The notes below the pieces were generated by a model, which was given only the letters and a program-made list of their open reading frames with translations, was not told where the DNA came from and ran no database searches. A stretch of DNA of 64,000 nucleotides from Blastomonas sp. AAP53 (GTDB taxonomy: Bacteria > Pseudomonadota > Alphaproteobacteria > Sphingomonadales > Sphingomonadaceae). The stretch covers positions 186,001 through 250,000 of the forward strand of contig NZ_ANFZ01000009.1 in NCBI RefSeq assembly GCF_000331245.1. The letters run 5' to 3'. This document shows positions 4,925-13,742 of the stretch, one piece after another (position 1 is the first letter of the stretch; each line of letters begins with the position of its first letter). The position numbers and the translations under genes are program-made.

Positions 4925-5824
4925 TCAGGCTGGCTCGTTGATATAGTTCCGGATGAATTCTGCAATGGCATGAAAGCCGTCGCTGAACGCGGCACCGCTG
5001 CGCCACAGCGCTGCAATCGATCGTTTCGCGTTCCATCCGGCGATATCGAGCGTCGCCACCACTTCTGCGCTCTGCGTCTCGGCCGCCATATAGCGTTCGG
5101 GCAGGAGTGCCAGGCCGATACCTGACCCCACCATCTGCCGGATGCTGTCCAGGCTGGTGCCTTCATAGTCGTGCATGATGTGGGCACCGACCTGTTCGCA
5201 GATATCGCGAGTCTGGCGATGGAAATGGTGCCGCCGATCCAGTGTCAGAAACCCTTCGCCCTTCAGTGCATCGGCGGGGATGTTCCTTTGTCCCGCCAGC
5301 GGATGATCAGGCGGCGCGATGATGAACATCCGCTCGCTGAACAGCGGCTCGATGACAATGCCCGATGCATCCACGGGCAGGGGACAGAGCATCATGTCCA
5401 GCTCGCCGCGCATCAGCTGGCGCACCTGATCGTCGGGAATGCCTTCGCGAATATGCAGGCGCAGATCGGGTTGCTGCTTGTGCAGTCCGGCGACGATCGC
5501 TGGCATCAGATAGGGACCCAATGTCGGCGTGACGCCAAAGCGCAGGGTGCCGCCGATGCCCTTGCCCGCGCGCCGGGCAAGATCGGACAGATCGCGCACC
5601 TGCACCAAAATGCCCCGCGCGCGCGCTGCAATATCACGGCCCAGGGGTGTCAGTTGCACATCGTTGCTGCTGCGATCGATCAGCGATGCTCCCAGCCTGG
5701 CCTCCAGTGTTCGCAATTGCTGGCTGAGCGTTGGCTGCGAAACGTGCACGGCGAAGGCGGCGCGGCCGAAATGGCGGTGGTCGTCCAGCGCCACCAGATA
5801 TTGCAATTGGCGTAGGCTGGGCAT
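4925..5824 (-). CDS. LysR-family regulator, OxyR-like, lacking the peroxidatic Cys
   Basis: 299 residues. The N-terminal winged helix (1-60) has the LysR signature F-G-R-A-A-F-A-V-H-V-S-Q-P-T-L-S-Q-Q-L. The effector domain aligns with OxyR, including F-L-T-L-D near 195 and T-S-L-D-S-I-R-Q-M-V-G-S-G-I-G-L-A-L-L-P. At the E. coli Cys199 position (peroxidatic) this protein has His200, while the Cys208 equivalent, Cys209, is kept with the same 9-residue spacing. It therefore cannot make the normal OxyR disulfide and may sense something else or be a constitutive regulator. ATG 5824 is chosen because GGAG lies 6-7 bases upstream; a further ATG at 5863 lacks homology. The adjacent export operon or the distant katG are possible targets (inference). 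Confidence 0.85.
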   Translation of the reverse strand: MPSLRQLQYLVALDDHRHFGRAAFAVHVSQPTLSQQLRTLEARLGASLIDRSSNDVQLTPLGRDIAARARGILVQVRDLSDLARRAGKGIGGTLRFGVTPTLGPYLMPAIVAGLHKQQPDLRLHIREGIPDDQVRQLMRGELDMMLCPLPVDASGIVIEPLFSERMFIIAPPDHPLAGQRNIPADALKGEGFLTLDRRHHFHRQTRDICEQVGAHIMHDYEGTSLDSIRQMVGSGIGLALLPERYMAAETQSAEVVATLDIAGWNAKRSIAALWRSGAAFSDGFHAIAEFIRNYINEPA

Positions 5825-6176
5825 GGCGGCTCCATTGGCTTGATAGGCGTTTACTATCGGCAAGGGGCGAGTCTTTCAAATGGAAACAATGATACATTGT
5901 GGCATATTCTTTTCATACCAAGCAGATGAGCCGGTCCCTCCCCGAACCGCTCTTGCCAAAACTGCTTGAGAGATGCCGTGGCTTGAATGGACACCCCAAA
6001 GCTGCGGATAGGGTGACGCATCGGTCCGCCGAGGTCGCAGCTTAGCCTCCGGTGCGTCACCCGACTATCTCCAGCCGGCAGGCAATGACAGCTCGCGACC
6101 AGCGCGCCAGCGACAGACAGCCGTGCCGCGACGATTGGGCGCGGGTTCCGAAGATGTTATGCGCAATGGAGCGCCA
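5825..6176. other. 352-base gene-free region with a 10-bp inverted repeat
   Basis: This region lies upstream of the LysR gene and downstream of the tolC-like gene. I see no credible coding frame. GATAGGGTGACGCA (6007-6020) faces TGCGTCACCC (6053-6062) plus CTATC (6065-6069), making a long imperfect stem with a 32-base loop and no T-run. The AT-richer part (5876-5925) probably holds the LysR-gene promoter. Confidence 0.5.
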
Positions 6177-7661
6177 TCAGGGCGCCGGGACCTGGCCGAA
6201 GTCGGCGCTCAGCCTCAACGCATCCAGATCAGCAGCCACGGCCACAAGGTCGGCACGGGCCTGCGCCAGCCGGAACTCTGCATCCAGTCGCCGAATGGCA
6301 GCATTGGCGGCGGCGTCCTCGCGCAGATTGACGAGGAAGAAGTCGCTGGCGCCAGCCTGGAACAGCCTCCGTTCGCCGGCTGCCAGCTTTTCGGCCTGGA
6401 CCTCTTCGTCGCGCGCCAACACGGCCAACCGTTCGGCGGCAGTCAGGTTGGTGGAAAGCTGCTCCACCTCGGCGATGATCTGTTCCTCGCTCTGCCGACG
6501 CCGCCATTCCAGGGCGTTGATATTGGCCTCGGTTGCTGCAACCTGACCCTTGGCGGCCCGGTTCTGCAACGGCATCGAGAAGGTAAAGCCGACGATCGCT
6601 TCGAACGGATCGCGCGAGCGCCCGCCCAGGCCCTCCTCGCCGAAATCCTTGCCCGCTTCGGCAAACAGCCGCAGCGAAGGCAGCAGGCGGTTGCGTTCCA
6701 GTTCCAGCCGGGTTTCGCCGAGCTCCAGCCGCTGCTCAATCAACTTGATATCGGGTCGCCTTGCCAGGATGGCCGCCGGATCGGTTTCACGCGCGGCAGA
6801 GATCATCGGCAGCGCACTGGGCAGCTGAGCGGGCGTTGCCACACGCGGCCTGCCATCATCGTCGCGCCAGAACAGCGACAGGCGCTGCGCTGCATTGGCC
6901 AGATCGCGTTCTGCGGCCACCAGCAGCGACTGGCGGCGCAACAGGTTCTGCTCGTTTTCAGTGAGCAGAATGGCCGCGCGCGCGCCCAGCTGGACCTGGC
7001 GGCGGATACCCTGCTGCCGATCCTGCGCCAGACCCACGAGTGAACGGTAGACCTGCACCTGCTGCCCGGCAGCGACCCATTGGCCATAGGCCTGGATCGC
7101 GCGCTGCTGGACGCCAATGGCGATGATGAGCGCATCGAGACCGGCCATGTCACGTTCGATCAGCGCGCTCTGCTGGCCAAAACGACGGTCATCGATGTAC
7201 CGATCCCGCAGCAGCGCGAATACACCGCGGACCTTCAGTTCGCCCAGCCGATCGGTGAAGCTGTAATCTTCGTAAGTCGGGAAATCTCCGCGCGAGACGC
7301 GATAACTTGCTTCCAGCTGGCCGCCATTGTTGGTCAGCGGCTGGATCGCCTTTCCCTGAAGATAGGTGCCATCATAGAAGCCCGCGACCCGCGAAAACCC
7401 TTCGCCGGTGAACAGCAGGTCAAAGGCGCCCTCGCTTGCCAGCACCCGGCCATCGGCGGCGCGGGCCATGGCCAGCGCCTCGAGGATCGCAGGTGCAAAC
7501 CGCCGCGACGATTCCAGCACTTCGGACAGCTGCAGCCCTTGCGCCGAACGTACCTGATCGGGGACCGTGAGCGGTGCGGGCAGGGACTGGGCACCGGCAG
7601 GCGCGGCCAGAGCCGCCAGCGTCGATGCCGCCAGCCCTGCCAGCAGTAATGCCTTGCGCAT
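6177..7661 (-). CDS. TolC-family outer-membrane export channel
   Basis: 494 residues with an N-terminal signal peptide ending near residue 24 (A-P-A-G-A-Q). It has the two repeated coiled helical hairpins typical of TolC-type trimeric channels, with R-R-P-D-I-K-L-I-E-Q-R-L-E-L-G-E near 310-330, the conserved outer-membrane-factor block. It forms the outer-membrane exit duct. The start ATG at 7659-7661 overlaps the stop of the upstream HlyD gene (TGATG), so translation is coupled and the three genes ABC-HlyD-TolC are one operon. The gene order and adaptor type suggest a type I-like secretion or export line. The cargo is not encoded nearby and is unknown. Confidence 0.87.
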   Translation of the reverse strand: MRKALLLAGLAASTLAALAAPAGAQSLPAPLTVPDQVRSAQGLQLSEVLESSRRFAPAILEALAMARAADGRVLASEGAFDLLFTGEGFSRVAGFYDGTYLQGKAIQPLTNNGGQLEASYRVSRGDFPTYEDYSFTDRLGELKVRGVFALLRDRYIDDRRFGQQSALIERDMAGLDALIIAIGVQQRAIQAYGQWVAAGQQVQVYRSLVGLAQDRQQGIRRQVQLGARAAILLTENEQNLLRRQSLLVAAERDLANAAQRLSLFWRDDDGRPRVATPAQLPSALPMISAARETDPAAILARRPDIKLIEQRLELGETRLELERNRLLPSLRLFAEAGKDFGEEGLGGRSRDPFEAIVGFTFSMPLQNRAAKGQVAATEANINALEWRRRQSEEQIIAEVEQLSTNLTAAERLAVLARDEEVQAEKLAAGERRLFQAGASDFFLVNLREDAAANAAIRRLDAEFRLAQARADLVAVAADLDALRLSADFGQVPAP

Positions 7662-8761
7662 CACTTCTTCTCCGACCCGCTGCTGGACGACATGCCCTTC
7701 TGCCCGCCCGATGATGCGCCCGAAGCATTGCCGGTTCCCGCCTGGCTCTCGTTGATCAGAGCCGGGTTCTGCAGCGGGAAGTCGTTGAGCTGACGCCACA
7801 GTTCGAAGCCGACCGAGACCTGCTCCATGGCCACCCAGCCGCGCACGTTCGCGCCCAGCCGGACATAGGGTTCGCGCGGCCATCGCGCCTTGCCCCTGGC
7901 TTCCTGCACCAGCACGCGGAACAGGCCGTTGGGCGAGGCGGCAAGATCGACCTGCTGCACCTGTCCGTCGAACAGTCCGCGCGCCACCGAGGGCCAGCCC
8001 GAAAACTGGATCGCGGGCCAGCCTTCGAATTCCAGCCGGACCGGCTGTCCACGCCGGATCAGCGGGGCATCGCGACCGTCGACATAGATTTCCACCACGC
8101 GTTGCGCTTCGGTCGGGGCGAAGGTGGCCAGCACCTCGCCCTGCGATACCATGGTGGCACGATCGCCGCCGTTGATCCGCTGGATGACGCCGTTGCGCGG
8201 CGCGCGGACAAGCTGCAGCGACTGGCGCGCAAGATTGATGTCAATCTGCGTGATGGCGGCGCGGGCTTCGGCCAGCGTCGCTTCCATCTCCGCCACCTTG
8301 ATCCGCGCCAGCTCGTTCTCGCGCCGCGATGCCAGCCCCTCGCTGAACAGCGTGCCGGTGCGTCCGACATCGAGCCGGGCGGTGCTGAGAGCGCTGGCAG
8401 CAGCAGCGGCCTTTGCTTCGGCCAGGCTGCGTTCGACCCGCAGGCGCTGCAGCAGCATGGGGTCGTTATCGGAAATCTGGACGATCGGATCGCCCTCCTT
8501 CACCACCGAACCATCCTGCACATACCAGCGCTCGATGCGTCCCGACACCAGAGCGGTCACGTTCTGCAACCGGTCCTGCGGGTTGAGCGCGATCACTTGG
8601 CCGGCGCCATAGGCGGTCTGGACCCAGGGCACATAGAACATGAACAGGGTCGCCGCGATCAGGGTCAGCACCACCATGACGGCAATGGCGCGCAGCGGGC
8701 GCGGCGTGCGCTGCTTGGCCAGCGTGCGGAAGCGGACGAGGGCGCGATCACGCGTTGTCAT
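7661..8761 (-). CDS. HlyD-family periplasmic adaptor (membrane fusion protein)
   Basis: 366 residues. A short cytoplasmic N-terminus is followed by one transmembrane helix (about 25-47), a biotinyl-lipoyl-like half-motif (G-R-I-E-R-W-Y-V-Q-D-G-S-V-V-K-E-G-D-P-I-V), a coiled-coil hairpin (about 105-195) and the second lipoyl half with beta-barrel (R-A-P-R-N-G-V-I-Q-R-I). The C-terminus is Ser/Gly-rich and low complexity. Such adaptors link an inner-membrane exporter to a TolC channel. ATG 8761 is chosen for homology; it lies 14 bases inside the 3' end of the ABC gene, so the two are translationally coupled. The gene downstream is the TolC channel. Confidence 0.88.
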   Translation of the reverse strand: MTTRDRALVRFRTLAKQRTPRPLRAIAVMVVLTLIAATLFMFYVPWVQTAYGAGQVIALNPQDRLQNVTALVSGRIERWYVQDGSVVKEGDPIVQISDNDPMLLQRLRVERSLAEAKAAAAASALSTARLDVGRTGTLFSEGLASRRENELARIKVAEMEATLAEARAAITQIDINLARQSLQLVRAPRNGVIQRINGGDRATMVSQGEVLATFAPTEAQRVVEIYVDGRDAPLIRRGQPVRLEFEGWPAIQFSGWPSVARGLFDGQVQQVDLAASPNGLFRVLVQEARGKARWPREPYVRLGANVRGWVAMEQVSVGFELWRQLNDFPLQNPALINESQAGTGNASGASSGGQKGMSSSSGSEKK

Positions 8762-10472
8762 GACGTGCCTCCTCTGCCTGGCTGCGGGTGACGTGCAGGA
8801 ACTCGTCGGGATCGTCGATGATGCGCTGGCCATCGCAACCCAGCCACAGATAGCGGCAGTCCGAAGGGGCATCCGGACGATAGCTGAACTGGATCACGGT
8901 CGATCCCTGTTCGCTCATCACCTTGCGGACGTCGGAAAGGATCGCTCCGTCGATCATGTCGAACAGCCCGGTCATGATCAGCAGACGCGGGCATTTGAGC
9001 ATGGCACCGGCGAGCTTGAGCCGCAGCGACTCAGCGTAGGACAGGGGCCAGCCGCTCATGGAGAGCTGCGTGTCCAGGCCATCGGGCAGGCGCATCACGC
9101 GATCTTCCAGCCGGACCATGGCCAGCGCGCGCAGCGCATCGGCCGATGTCGTTTCCGGCCCTGCGAGCCTCAGATAGTCGCGGATGCTGGCCTGGACGAT
9201 GGTGGGCCGGTCGAGGACGATGATCTCGCTGCGCAGGCGGAACATGTCCACCATCGCAATGTCCTGGCCACCCAGGGTCACGACCCCGGTTTGAGGGGTG
9301 ATGTACCGCTTCATTGCATGGGTGAACAATCGTTGGACGTCGTGGTTCTGCGCCTGCGCGATCAGCTGGCTGCCGGCGGGAATCGCGATATCCAGCGTGA
9401 TGTTCTGAGCGGTCGGCGCGTGGCTGACCCGGCGCAGCACAAGGTCGCTGCCGCTGATCGCGTCCTGCCCCTCGCGGGCCTCTTCCTCCTGCTCGATATG
9501 GTAGAGCATGCCGATTTCTTCGGCGGCGGCGATCAGGTCGTAGGTCGTATCGAGATACGCGCCCATCTGGCCCAGGCCGAAGAACGCCGCCGAAAGGATC
9601 AGCTCGGCGGCTACCAGCTGCCCGATCGACAGCTCGCCACGGATGACCAGCCAGCCGCCCAGCGCCAGAAGGCCGGCACTGGCGAACGCATAAAGCAGCA
9701 GAAAAGCTACGGTCTGCGACATGGTGTACCGGAAATGCTTGGACTTGGCGCTGACATAGGCGGCGCTGACGTCTTCGGAACGATCCAGCGCATAATCGAC
9801 GTGCCGACCCGACTTGTAGAATCCGTTCGAAGCACCGACGTTTTCCAGCCAGCCTGCGGTGGCGTATTTGGCATGGCTCAGCGCGATGCCCGAGCGGATC
9901 GCGCCGCGCGTCCAGACCAGCAGGATCAGCATCGCGATGCCGATGACGATCAGGTTGAAGGCCAGGAAGAACGGGTGGTAAAACGCCGTGACGGCAAAGC
10001 CGACCGCGGACTGCAGGATGATGGTAAAGCCGCCAATCAACAGGCTCGGCACCGCTTTCTGCACGGTATTGACGTCGAAATAGCGGTTGAACAGGTCCTG
10101 CCGCTTGCTGTCCTCGAAAAACGGGTTGCGAGCGTGGATGGAACGCAGCGTGATCTCTGCTACCTGACGGGCATAGAACCGGCGGGCGAACAGCTCCATC
10201 GTGTAGATGCGAAGAGCCGAAAGCAGTACCGCGATCAGCAACAGGCCCAGCAGCGTCCCCGCCAGTGTGACCAGGGGTGTCACCAGCGCGGTGTTGGCGA
10301 CCGAGTTGATCAGCATCTGGACCGAAATGGGTGTCGCCAGCGACAGCACCGAAACCGCCACGCCGTAGATCAACGCCAAGGTGATGAAGCTGCGCTCACC
10401 GCTCAGCAGGCTGAGCATCCAGCGGATCGCCTCACGCGCTCCCATGATGTGATGTTCGGAAGATGACGCCAT
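8748..10472 (-). CDS. ABC exporter with a degenerate, ATPase-dead nucleotide-binding domain
   Basis: 574 residues. Residues about 20-320 form a six-helix type I exporter membrane domain. Residues about 340-560 align along the whole length of an exporter NBD, but every catalytic motif is gone. The Walker A site reads A-Q-N-H-D-V-Q-R (about 374-381) in place of GxxGxGKS/T. The Q-loop Gln is Asp (V-L-D). The signature LSGGQ is LSYAE (477-481). Walker B LLxLDE is LLIMTG (497-502), and the switch His is Tyr (F-S-Y-R). The conserved surrounding positions (P-D-G-L-D-T, lR-x-x-I) show this is real homology, not a misread frame. No peptidase domain precedes it. It is first in an operon with HlyD and TolC genes. 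It may act as a passive scaffold or need a second ATPase. The start is ATG 10472. Confidence 0.88.
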   Translation of the reverse strand: MASSSEHHIMGAREAIRWMLSLLSGERSFITLALIYGVAVSVLSLATPISVQMLINSVANTALVTPLVTLAGTLLGLLLIAVLLSALRIYTMELFARRFYARQVAEITLRSIHARNPFFEDSKRQDLFNRYFDVNTVQKAVPSLLIGGFTIILQSAVGFAVTAFYHPFFLAFNLIVIGIAMLILLVWTRGAIRSGIALSHAKYATAGWLENVGASNGFYKSGRHVDYALDRSEDVSAAYVSAKSKHFRYTMSQTVAFLLLYAFASAGLLALGGWLVIRGELSIGQLVAAELILSAAFFGLGQMGAYLDTTYDLIAAAEEIGMLYHIEQEEEAREGQDAISGSDLVLRRVSHAPTAQNITLDIAIPAGSQLIAQAQNHDVQRLFTHAMKRYITPQTGVVTLGGQDIAMVDMFRLRSEIIVLDRPTIVQASIRDYLRLAGPETTSADALRALAMVRLEDRVMRLPDGLDTQLSMSGWPLSYAESLRLKLAGAMLKCPRLLIMTGLFDMIDGAILSDVRKVMSEQGSTVIQFSYRPDAPSDCRYLWLGCDGQRIIDDPDEFLHVTRSQAEEARHDNA

Positions 10473-10808
10473 ATTCTCTGCCTGCCCGTTAATCCAAGGT
10501 CGCTGCCGCACCAATTAGGTCCTTGGGCCGATAAGCCCATTCGAAAGGCAACGTCCAGAACGATTGGTTTTGTCTATCGGGCAAACGCCCCCGCCGGTGC
10601 CTGCTTCATGCCGGAGACACCGCTCAAACCGAACGACAAAATCGCAATATTGATCCACGTAAACAAGACAATAGCTGGCACGAGGATGACAAAGGTGCCG
10701 AAGTTCGCCTTCAGTTGTTCAGAGGCATTGCCTAAACCACTGTAACAAATGTAATATCTTTTGGCGACACGCAAGCAGGCCCTGCTCGGGCCGGCCTGCG
10801 CATGGCGT
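10473..10808. other. 336-base gene-free region upstream of the export operon
   Basis: It lies between uvrA's 3' end and the ABC gene start. It contains a lower-GC patch (10630-10770). A weak minus-strand promoter candidate is TTGTCT (10666-10671) with TATTGC (10644-10649), 16 bases apart. An open minus-strand frame here encodes one hydrophobic segment but has no credible start, so it is not called as a gene. Confidence 0.4.
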
Positions 10809-13742
10809 CTATCGCTTGAGCAAAGGCGCGAGATAATGGCCGGTGTAGCTCGCCTTGACCTTGGCCACCTGCTCGGGTGTGCCCTCTGCGACGACTTCGC
10901 CACCCTTGACGCCACCTTCCGGGCCCATGTCGATGATCCAGTCCGCTGTCTTGATCACGTCCAGATTGTGCTCGATCACGACGACGCTGTTGCCCTGATC
11001 GACCAGCCGGTGGAGGACTTCGAGCAGCTTGCGGACATCCTCGAAATGCAATCCGGTGGTCGGTTCATCGAGGATGTAGAGCGTCTGCCCGGTCGATCGG
11101 CGGCTGAGTTCCTTGGCCAGCTTGACGCGTTGCGCCTCGCCGCCCGATAGGGTTGTGGCCTGCTGGCCGACCTTGACATAGCCCAGCCCGACTTCCCACA
11201 GCATCGCCATGCGGTCGCGGATCGGCGGCACCGCCTTGAAGAACTCGACCGCGTCCTCGACGGTCATGTCGAGCACGTCGGCGATCGAGTAGCCCTTGAA
11301 CTTCACCTCCAGCGTCTCGCGGTTATAGCGCTTGCCGTTGCATTCCTCGCAGGTGACATAGACATCGGGCAGGAAGTGCATCTCGATCTTGATGACGCCG
11401 TCACCCTGGCATTTCTCGCAGCGGCCACCCTTGACGTTGAAGCTGAACCGGCCCGGCTTGTAGCCGCGCGCAAGGCTTTCGGGCAGGCCGGCAAACCAGT
11501 CGCGGATATTGGTGAACGCGCCGGTATAGGTTGCGGGGTTCGACCGCGGGGTGCGGCCGATCGGCGACTGGTCGATATCGATGACCTTGTCGCAATGCTC
11601 CAGCCCGGTGATCTTGTCGTGCGGTCCGGCGATGATCCGCGCGCCGTTGAGCGTGCGCGCCGCGCCGGCATAGAGCGTATCGATGGTGAAGCTCGACTTG
11701 CCCGATCCGGATACGCCGGTGATGCAGGTGAAGGTGCCGAGCGGGATCGACGCGGTGACGCCGTTCAGATTGTTGGCCCGCGCGTTATGGACCGTCAGCT
11801 TCTTGCCATTGCCCTTGCGACGCTTGGCCGGAACCTCGATCCGCCGTTCGCCGGTCAGATACTGCGCGGTCAGCGAGTCCTTTGATTTCAGCAGCTCCTC
11901 CAGCGTGCCCTGCGCCACGATCTCGCCGCCATGCACGCCCGCGCCTGGCCCCAGATCGACGATATAGTCGGCGGTGCGGATCGCATCCTCGTCATGCTCG
12001 ACGACGATCACCGTATTGCCCAGGTCGCGCAGCCGCTTGAGCGTGACCAGCAACCGGTCGTTGTCCTTCTGGTGCAGGCCGATGCTGGGCTCGTCGAGCA
12101 CGTACAGCACGCCCGAAAGTCCGCTGCCGATCTGGCTGGCGAGCCGGATGCGCTGCGATTCCCCGCCGGAGAGCGTGCCCGAGGTGCGATCGAGGTTGAG
12201 GTAATCGAGCCCGACATTGTTGAGGAAGCCCAGCCGCTCGATGATCTCCTTGAGGATCGCCTTGGCGATCTGCTGCTGCTGCGCGCCGAGCTTGTCGTTC
12301 AAGGTTTCGAAGAAGTGCAGCGCGTCGGCGACCGAGCGGCGGGTGGAGATCGAGATATCCTCGCCTGCAATCTTGACCGATCGTGCCTCGGGCTTGAGAC
12401 GCGCGCCATCGCACACTTCGCAGGGCTGAGCGGTCTGATACTTGCTCAGCTCCTCGCGCATCCACGCGCTGTCGGTCTGCAGCAGGCGTCGGTTGAGATT
12501 GCCGATCACGCCCTCGAACGCCTTCTTGACCTCGTACGACTTGCGACCGTCCTGGAACCGCAAGGTCACAGGCTTTCCGCCGGTGCCATGCAGGATGATC
12601 AGCCGAACTTCGCCCGGCAGATCCTGCCACGGAGTCTCGAGCGAAAAGCCAAACTCGCGCCCCAGGCTGCTGAGCACCTGCATGTAATAGGGTGAAGGCG
12701 GGTTCGATTTGGCCCAGGGCACCACGGCACCCTTCTTGAGGCTGAGTTCCTCGTTGGGGACCACCAGCTGCGGGTCGAAATACATCTTCTCGCCCAGGCC
12801 ATCGCATGCCGGGCATGCGCCTTGCGGGGCGTTGAACGAAAAGAGCCGCGGTTCGATCGCCTCGATCGTGAAGCCGGAGACGGGGCAGGCGAAGCGTTCG
12901 GAAAAGATGATGCGGTTGTCGGGAATGCCGGCATTCTTCATGCCCTTCTTCGGCTTTTCCGCTTCGACCACCGGAATTTCGGATGGCGCTGCAGGCACTG
13001 GCTCACCCAAGGCCGCAACCGTGCCGTCCGCCAGATCGACGAATGCCAGTCCATCGGCCAGCTTCAGCGCGGTCTCGAAACTGTCGGCGAGCCGCGTCTC
13101 GATGCCTTCGCGCACCGCCATGCGGTCGACGACGACCTCGATGTCATGCTTGTACTTCTTGTCGAGCGTCGGTGCCGCGTCGATTTCGTACATTTCGCCG
13201 TCGATACGGACGCGGGTGAAGCCCGCCTTCTGCCATTCGGCTAGTTCCTTGCGATACTCGCCCTTGCGGCCACGCACCACCGGCGCAAGCAGATAGAAGC
13301 GCGTGCCTTCGGGCAAGGCCATGATCCGGTCGACCATCATGCTGACCGTTTGCGCGGTGATGGGCAGGCCGGTGGCGGGCGAATAGGGCACGCCCACGCG
13401 CGCCCAGAGGAGGCGCATGTAATCGTAGATCTCGGTGACGGTCGCCACGGTCGAGCGCGGGTTGCGGCTGGTCGTCTTCTGCTCGATGCTGATCGCAGGG
13501 CTGAGGCCGTCGATATGCTCGACATCGGGCTTCTGCATCATCTCGAGGAACTGGCGCGCATAAGCCGAGAGCGATTCGACGTAGCGCCGCTGGCCTTCCG
13601 CATAGATCGTGTCGAACGCCAGGCTGGATTTGCCGCTGCCGGAAAGTCCGGTGATGACGATCAGCTGATCGCGGGGCAGATCGATGTCCACGCCCTTGAG
13701 GTTATGTTCGCGCGCGCCGCGCACAGAGATGTGGGTGAGCAT
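10809..13742 (-). CDS. uvrA: excinuclease ABC subunit A
   Basis: 977 residues, slightly longer than E. coli UvrA (940). Two ABC ATPase modules are intact: Walker [10 protein letters not shown] near residue 31 and G-V-S-G-S-G-K-S-S near 670, with signatures L-S-G-G-E-S-Q-R and L-S-G-G-E-A-Q-R. Zinc-finger Cys pairs occur (C-P-A-C-D-G, C-E-V-C-D-G, C-E-K-C-Q-G, C-E-E-C-N-G). It is the damage-recognition ATPase that loads UvrB in nucleotide excision repair. An extra stretch near 255-290 ([12 protein letters not shown]) explains the added length. It is transcribed alone. A LexA box was not obvious upstream. Confidence 0.98.

Follow-up and report, generated by a model that had tools for sequence, protein, structure and literature searches.

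ATP-driven nucleotide-binding domains (NBDs) define ATP-binding cassette (ABC) exporters. In the type I secretion exporters (HlyB, LapB, PCAT) an exporter transmembrane domain (TMD) is fused to such an NBD, and an adaptor and an outer membrane factor are encoded in the same operon. Heterodimeric exporters with a degenerate site (TM287/288, TmrAB, PatAB) have altered catalytic residues in an NBD; the known degenerate halves usually keep Walker A. The isolated membrane domains of LmrA and MsbA are laboratory truncations, in which an exporter membrane domain is left without a usable ATPase; a carboxylate in transmembrane helix 6 (TM6) is described for LmrA (PMC2704374, PMC6155054, PMC4979069). 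RND and MFS tripartite pumps combine an ion-driven inner membrane protein with an adaptor and a TolC-type duct (reviewed in PMC8277102). Here we describe a gene in a 64,000-nucleotide stretch of the genome of Blastomonas sp. AAP53 (contig NZ_ANFZ01000009.1, positions 186,001 to 250,000; hereafter the window). Its product is an ABC exporter half-transporter whose NBD lacks every catalytic motif, and it almost certainly belongs to a conserved family of ATPase-dead tripartite exporters. A family kept by selection without ATPase chemistry departs from the rule that defines ABC exporters.

The initial annotation placed the gene correctly at 8748-10472 but left its strand unstated; it lies on the minus strand. 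The open reading frame (ORF) runs from 10514 to 8748 with an ATG at 10472, giving a product of 574 amino acids (aa), and the long open frame also present on the plus strand across 8748-10472 is explained by the gene's real orientation. The HlyD-TolC operon proposed behind the ABC gene was borne out: a HlyD gene (8761..7661) overlaps the end of the ABC gene, and an OEP/TolC gene ends at 6177. The ORF listed for the latter starts at 7883; a likely start near 7661, with a signal-like N terminus, was chosen by eye. The ABC gene, its parts and its two operon partners are as follows.

8748..10472, minus strand: ABC exporter half-transporter with a catalytically dead NBD, 574 aa (ORF, profile matches and alignment)
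9498..10439, minus strand: transmembrane domain, residues 12-325 (Pfam ABC_membrane; helices in the AlphaFold2 model)
9603..9605, minus strand: Glu290, in the last transmembrane helix, invariant in the family (106 of 106 rows)
8817..9443, minus strand: pseudo-NBD, residues 344-552 (predicted well folded; 10-residue blocks with pLDDT 82-93, one at 74)
9330..9359, minus strand: Walker A position, AQAQNHDVQR, with no GxxGxGKS/T (alignment with ordinary exporters)
9207..9212, minus strand: Q-loop position, where the family motif Asp421-Arg422 replaces Gln (alignment)
9027..9053, minus strand: signature position, GWPLSYAES (PLSYAES) in place of LSGGQ (alignment)
8958..8987, minus strand: Walker B position, RLLIMTGLFD, with Thr-Gly where the stretch should end DE (alignment)
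8880..8882, minus strand: switch-His position, Tyr531 (alignment)
7661..8761, minus strand: HlyD-type periplasmic adaptor, 366 aa, overlapping the end of the ABC gene (ORF, Pfam, NCBIfam)
6177..7661, minus strand: OEP/TolC-type outer membrane factor (ORF, Pfam)

The window protein matches Pfam ABC_membrane above the cut-off (9.3e-08, 32.5 bits against 28), whereas ABC_tran falls far under its own (E 0.062, 14.3 bits against 25). Among NCBIfam models that for HlyB (type I secretion) matches best, at 6e-30, yet falls far short of its cut-off, as the other exporter models do of theirs. Alignment confirmed the initial reading of the NBD as one without Walker A, the Q-loop Gln (Asp421 here), LSGGQ, the Walker B DE and the switch His (Tyr531 here).

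The loss is shared by the relatives of the protein. A search of 98 genomes of the same order, the window's own included, returned 25 close matches: the window protein, 23 uninterrupted homologues (37-91% identity) and a gene split between two frames in genome G043 (loci L022 and L031), which reflects a sequencing error or a broken copy. The next tier in these genomes consists of HlyB-like exporters at about 24% identity. None of the five catalytic motifs occurs in any of the 24 uninterrupted rows, the window's included and the split gene excluded. In a larger set, the best 80 of at least 535 encoding stretches in contigs of named genomes, Walker A, the Q-loop Gln, LSGGQ and the Walker B DE were each found in 0 of 80 loci and the switch His in one (L058). 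Close homologues with normal Walker motifs were therefore absent (0 of 23 homologues, 0 of 80 loci), and the homologue search recovered what the initial annotation had expected of a genuine family: shared loss of the motifs, a membrane domain left intact, and HlyD and TolC as constant neighbours.

Deeper sampling qualifies this picture. When 43 family rows were compared with 16 ordinary exporters, Walker A was intact in three family rows (L145, L148, L194) against 16 of 16 ordinary exporters, the Walker B DE in one (L194) against 15, and the switch His in two (L191, L196) against 16; LSGGQ and the Q-loop Gln were found in no family row, against 12 and 16 ordinary exporters, respectively. The claim that every motif is gone thus stands for the window protein and its close members, but three of the 43 rows, all deep, keep Walker A, one of them together with the Walker B DE. 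The residues at the lost catalytic positions differ among close members, and the pseudo-NBD shows a conservation pattern particular to it: among 106 rows (exact duplicates removed, a few proteins being present twice, e.g., L056 and A1_L008) Arg422 and Asp505 are each found in 105 and Asp421 in 97, the composition at position 421 being D 97, E 5 and N 4.

Conservation along the protein is inverted relative to ordinary exporters, with the membrane domain ahead of the NBD. Mean identity within the core family (22 rows) is 55.4% in the TMD and 39.1% in the NBD, with NBD identity exceeding that of the TMD in 0 of 231 pairs; for all 43 family rows the values are 42.3% and 29.0% (8 of 903 pairs). For the 16 ordinary exporters they are 33.2% and 44.9%, and the NBD is the more conserved in 110 of 120 pairs. 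As judged by sequence comparison inside one genus, purifying selection acts on both domains: in eight comparisons with the window gene dN/dS was 0.086-0.131 for the NBD and 0.047-0.086 for the TMD (Nei-Gojobori method; dS 0.64-1.19 and so partly saturated).

An AlphaFold2 model of the single chain, built from a 20-row alignment (mean pLDDT 75.5, pTM 0.67), is confident for the NBD and less sure for the membrane domain. The 50 best Foldseek matches are all exporters, PCAT1 being the best, followed by TM287/288, Atm1 types (AtAtm3), HlyB and others. As the query TM-scores are 0.46-0.60 and the rmsd is large (13-19 A), the predicted exporter fold is clear and the arrangement of the domains is not.

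A membrane-domain tree (a quick search, with several long branches) places the family on one side of a branch from the 16 ordinary exporters (SH-aLRT 99). The carriers of Walker A (L145, L148, L194) fall outside the 34-row clade that holds the window protein. A second group, without Walker A (L195-L199), likewise falls outside this clade, which means that Walker A may have been lost more than once. The deep-branch rows that retain Walker A suggest stepwise decay, in which catalytic residues would have been lost first and nucleotide binding later.

The resemblance to type I secretion exporters extends from the operon to the best NCBIfam match (HlyB) and the best structural match (PCAT1); however, the window protein lacks ATPase motifs and an N-terminal C39-like domain, stands in a clade separate from the ordinary exporters, and is accompanied by a short adaptor (366 aa) and no obvious substrate gene. 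Among the loci examined no conserved neighbour resembled a secreted substrate, ten neighbour proteins (one of them a member of the ABC family itself) having been checked by Pfam.

As to how such a protein might work, the initial annotation had suggested a conduit powered by another system, a receptor-like scaffold or an exporter that borrows an ATPase in trans. We tentatively favor an account to which, taken whole, we give somewhat less than an even chance. The window protein would be the inner-membrane part of a dedicated three-component exporter comprising an ABC-like membrane protein, a HlyD adaptor and a TolC-type duct, and would dimerise with a second copy of itself, like other half-transporters. 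Within this homodimer the pseudo-NBDs would keep the two halves together and shape the gate, with the family-specific Asp-Arg, GxP and Asp505 involved. The membrane domain would alternate access under the drive of an ion gradient, probably of protons, by way of buried polar residues such as Glu290, in analogy to LmrA and MsbA. Four residues in or near the membrane set the family apart: Glu290 (43 of 43 family rows, 0 of 16 ordinary exporters), Tyr311 (43 of 43 and 0 of 16), Gln285 (43 of 43 and 2 of 16) and His166 (41 of 43 and 1 of 16). If ion-driven, the system would resemble the RND and MFS tripartite pumps in plan and differ from them in an inner membrane protein predicted, by Foldseek, to have an ABC exporter fold.

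The energetic part of this account leans on work with truncated exporters. LmrA without its NBD carried out ethidium-proton symport, and Glu314 of TM6 was needed for dependence on the pH gradient (PMC2704374, PMC6155054); MsbA without its NBD transported with a proton gradient (PMC4979069). The family differs from these laboratory constructs in that its ATPase was lost in nature, the NBD fold was kept and the Glu lies elsewhere in the helix.

Several points weigh against ion-driven transport by a homodimer. Measured by the distance to the Walker A position, and partly by way of the MsbA sequence, Glu290 presumably lies about 20 residues earlier in the helix than Glu314 of LmrA, which makes the comparison with LmrA one of analogy. 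Ion drive of full-length ABC exporters is itself debated. An NBD kept under selection could still accommodate nucleotide by a non-canonical route. The genomes surveyed encode further ABC half-transporters, the window's own included (seven ABC_membrane matches with the present gene), and all eight Xanthomonas loci have an intact exporter gene close to the operon. Finally, nucleotide also played a part in the LmrA and MsbA work just cited, which reports that Mg-ATP evoked no current from LmrA lacking the NBD, that full-length MsbA was more efficient than NBD-less MsbA, and that deletion of the Walker A lysine in full-length MsbA blocked efflux in cells (PMC4979069).

A broader proposition goes further, and we hold it with correspondingly less conviction, as possible but distinctly short of an even prospect: that a widespread natural family gave up ATP and became ion-driven secondary transporters feeding a HlyD-TolC duct, with surviving intermediates, in which Walker A is kept and other catalytic motifs are gone, recording the switch of energy source. 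With its partly decayed members still alive, the family offers a natural test of whether the membrane domain of an exporter can be powered by an ion gradient or serve as a gated duct, a matter for which truncated LmrA and MsbA have until now supplied the arguments.

If the homodimer is not the functional unit, then the dead half may pair with an intact half-transporter encoded elsewhere, or join a larger complex, and receive its ATPase in trans. We consider this unlikely, although it is the strongest of the alternatives. Heterodimers with one degenerate site are well known (TM287/288, TmrAB); TM287/288 is among the structural matches, and the deep members L145, L148 and L194, with Walker A kept, resemble degenerate-site halves. 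In the window protein, by contrast, Walker A is gone, and a homodimer would lack the motifs of both sites.

The search for a partner ATPase covered every frame for a Walker A followed by a signature, in flanks that reached about 8-10 kb at most and were shorter near contig ends. An ABC ATPase was found near the operon in 11 of the 80 loci, three of them uvrA and eight exporters in Xanthomonas. In all eight Xanthomonas loci (L106, L109, L110, L111, L115, L125, L126, L129) the same strand carries an intact exporter gene some 3 kb upstream, past the LysR gene; in L115 its product passes the cut-off for both Pfam ABC_membrane and ABC_tran. Within the scanned flanks no exporter ATPase was present in the remaining 72 loci (three of which have uvrA), nor in the window and 24 further loci, where nine of the 25 have one ATPase, in each case uvrA. 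Further loci yielded a FtsE-like ATPase (L209) and a small ABC ATPase (L153), neither of them an exporter. The nearest other ABC-type ATPase gene in the window is uvrA-like (10809-13742, named by eye from its sequence); uvrA stands beside the operon in Blastomonas-type loci, and in the loci scanned its linkage is confined to the window's genus. The initial annotation had described the partner as absent; this holds insofar as none is conserved beside the operon, and fails for Xanthomonas.

Partners encoded elsewhere in the genome were considered by surveying ABC_membrane proteins in nine family genomes. One draft genome of 1.7 Mb (G559, 99% complete) encodes, besides the family protein, a single other ABC_membrane protein, identified as MsbA by a match above the cut-off of that model. 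For G897 the survey recovered MsbA, CydD and CydC but not the family gene itself, which is diverged; the window's own genome gave its seven matches counting the gene studied here. Together with the flank scan, the survey indicates that a dedicated active partner is no general requirement. It weakens the case for such a partner and not that for the borrowing of a housekeeping exporter such as MsbA; in Xanthomonas the protein may also pair with the exporter encoded nearby.

Rather less likely again is that the protein is no pump at all but serves the HlyD-TolC duct, opening or anchoring it as a sensor, scaffold, plug or assembly factor, with the substrate moving down its own gradient or by means of another transporter. 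The lost catalytic motifs would fit such a role; however, the membrane domain is the more conserved part of the protein, as expected if it still handles substrate, and no constant neighbouring transporter was seen among the loci examined. A few loci do link the operon to the DabA/DabB membrane system. Genes for DabA, an inorganic-carbon transporter, lie near the operon in six of 127 loci (L083:3872-9701, L084:2706-9644, L133, L089, L210 and L246), representing four distinct arrangements (some genomes are in the set twice). A Proton_antipo_M (DabB-like) gene stands beside dabA in all four loci tested (L083, L084, L089, L210), and in L083 the dabB-like gene, dabA and the ABC gene are co-directional, dabA and the ABC gene being 46 bp apart. 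DabA is encoded in 15 of the 46 family genomes, and by a hand estimate about 0.2 linked loci are expected by chance. The link is not general, and DabA/DabB was rejected as a general partner system; it remains a lead.

Improbable, in our judgment, is a cryptic ATPase or nucleotide switch, in which the altered NBD would bind nucleotide or another ligand through a changed pocket and so gate the membrane domain. Such a switch would account for an NBD that is predicted to fold well, is under purifying selection and has conserved residues of its own (Asp421-Arg422, Asp505), and three deep members do retain Walker A. The close members, however, are without the glycines and lysine of the P-loop, the signature and the catalytic Glu, and the residues at these positions vary. 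That the gene is a decaying pseudogene or the product of sequencing or frame errors, as the split gene of G043 might hint, was checked and can be dismissed, given that 23 other genomes have an unbroken homologue and each of the 80 loci a long open frame, that dN/dS is near 0.1 and that the upstream site is conserved.

The upstream site and a regulator gene complete the description of the locus.

10563..10577, minus strand: LysR/OxyR-type dyad ATAGACAAAACCAAT upstream of the operon (pattern scan)
4925..5863, minus strand: OxyR-like LysR regulator (near the operon in 39 of 80 loci)

The LysR gene directly precedes the ABC gene in 35 of the 39 loci, follows closely on tolC in three and lies elsewhere in one. 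The dyad was defined as ATAG-N7-C(T/A)AT or the near form AT(A/T)G-N7-CTAT, mostly ATAGG-N5-CCTAT. It precedes the ABC gene in 26 of the 39 loci that have the regulator against one of the 41 that lack it (L055, from the window's genus), where mononucleotide shuffles predict about 0.2 loci per group by chance; the eight Xanthomonas loci and other near relatives in this count are not independent. The window shares the dyad with the eight other loci of its genus and with L043; because the pattern was picked after viewing sequences of the genus and of L043, the test is post hoc there, although not for other genera. The OxyR-like LysR protein probably controls the export operon. OxyR is the best NCBIfam match, below cut-off, for all four LysR proteins tested. 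At what we take to be the two redox-cysteine positions of OxyR, most of the LysR rows examined do not have both cysteines; peroxide sensing was rejected on this ground, and the regulator may sense something other than peroxide. A small membrane peptide upstream of the operon (10574-10915, minus strand) was rejected as a real gene, its best match in the other loci searched having an E-value of 0.75.

The 80 loci come mostly from Sphingomonadales, with others from Parvularcula, Kordiimonas, Caulobacter sp. RHG1, Halieaceae and the eight Xanthomonas; the nearest relatives of the window in the scan are Blastomonas and Sphingomonas ursincola. HlyD follows the ABC gene in 79 and TolC in 75 of these loci, the misses being at contig ends. 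In overlapping samples of genomes the family was found in 11 of 398 from the phylum (E <= 1e-60), in three of 289 from the window's class and in 14 of 369 from another class of the phylum, probably Gammaproteobacteria (E <= 1e-50).

At about 30% identity to the window protein the three genes still stand in a row where the contig permits, except in L211-L213. These three related genomes have the ABC-like gene and HlyD with no TolC following, and their ABC proteins are the shortest (513-515 aa), with a strongly eroded NBD. In L150, L152 and L208 the third gene resembles the window TolC weakly or not at all, yet is OEP by Pfam. Two deep members, L151 (genome G508) and L208 (G856), have N-terminal extensions that bring them to 776 and 689 aa; these may be remnants of a C39-like domain, although Pfam gave no match in the extension of L151. 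A 978-aa frame in L018 was rejected by eye as a fusion: its extra N-terminal part is an upstream open frame, after which there is a plausible start.

No title or abstract found among open-licence papers describes this family. Fifteen plasmid records carry the family, e.g., pNL2 of Novosphingobium aromaticivorans. In the laboratory strain DSM 12444 of that species the pNL2 homologue is SARO_RS19820, about 51% identical to the window protein, with SARO_RS19815 as its adaptor gene and SARO_RS19810 as its TolC gene. Where the plasmid records examined are annotated, the protein is named 'ABC transporter ATP-binding protein' or 'ABC transporter transmembrane domain-containing protein', names under which the loss of the ATPase motifs goes unseen. 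PHROG 2392 ('ABC transporter'), a family of phage proteins, matches residues 4-350 of the window protein, its membrane domain (3.6e-40), which indicates that related exporter-like genes occur in phage or prophage sets. One metagenome-assembled genome of Sphingomonadales (isolate bin40) carries two family copies (L063 and L069), 52% and 49% identical to that of the window.

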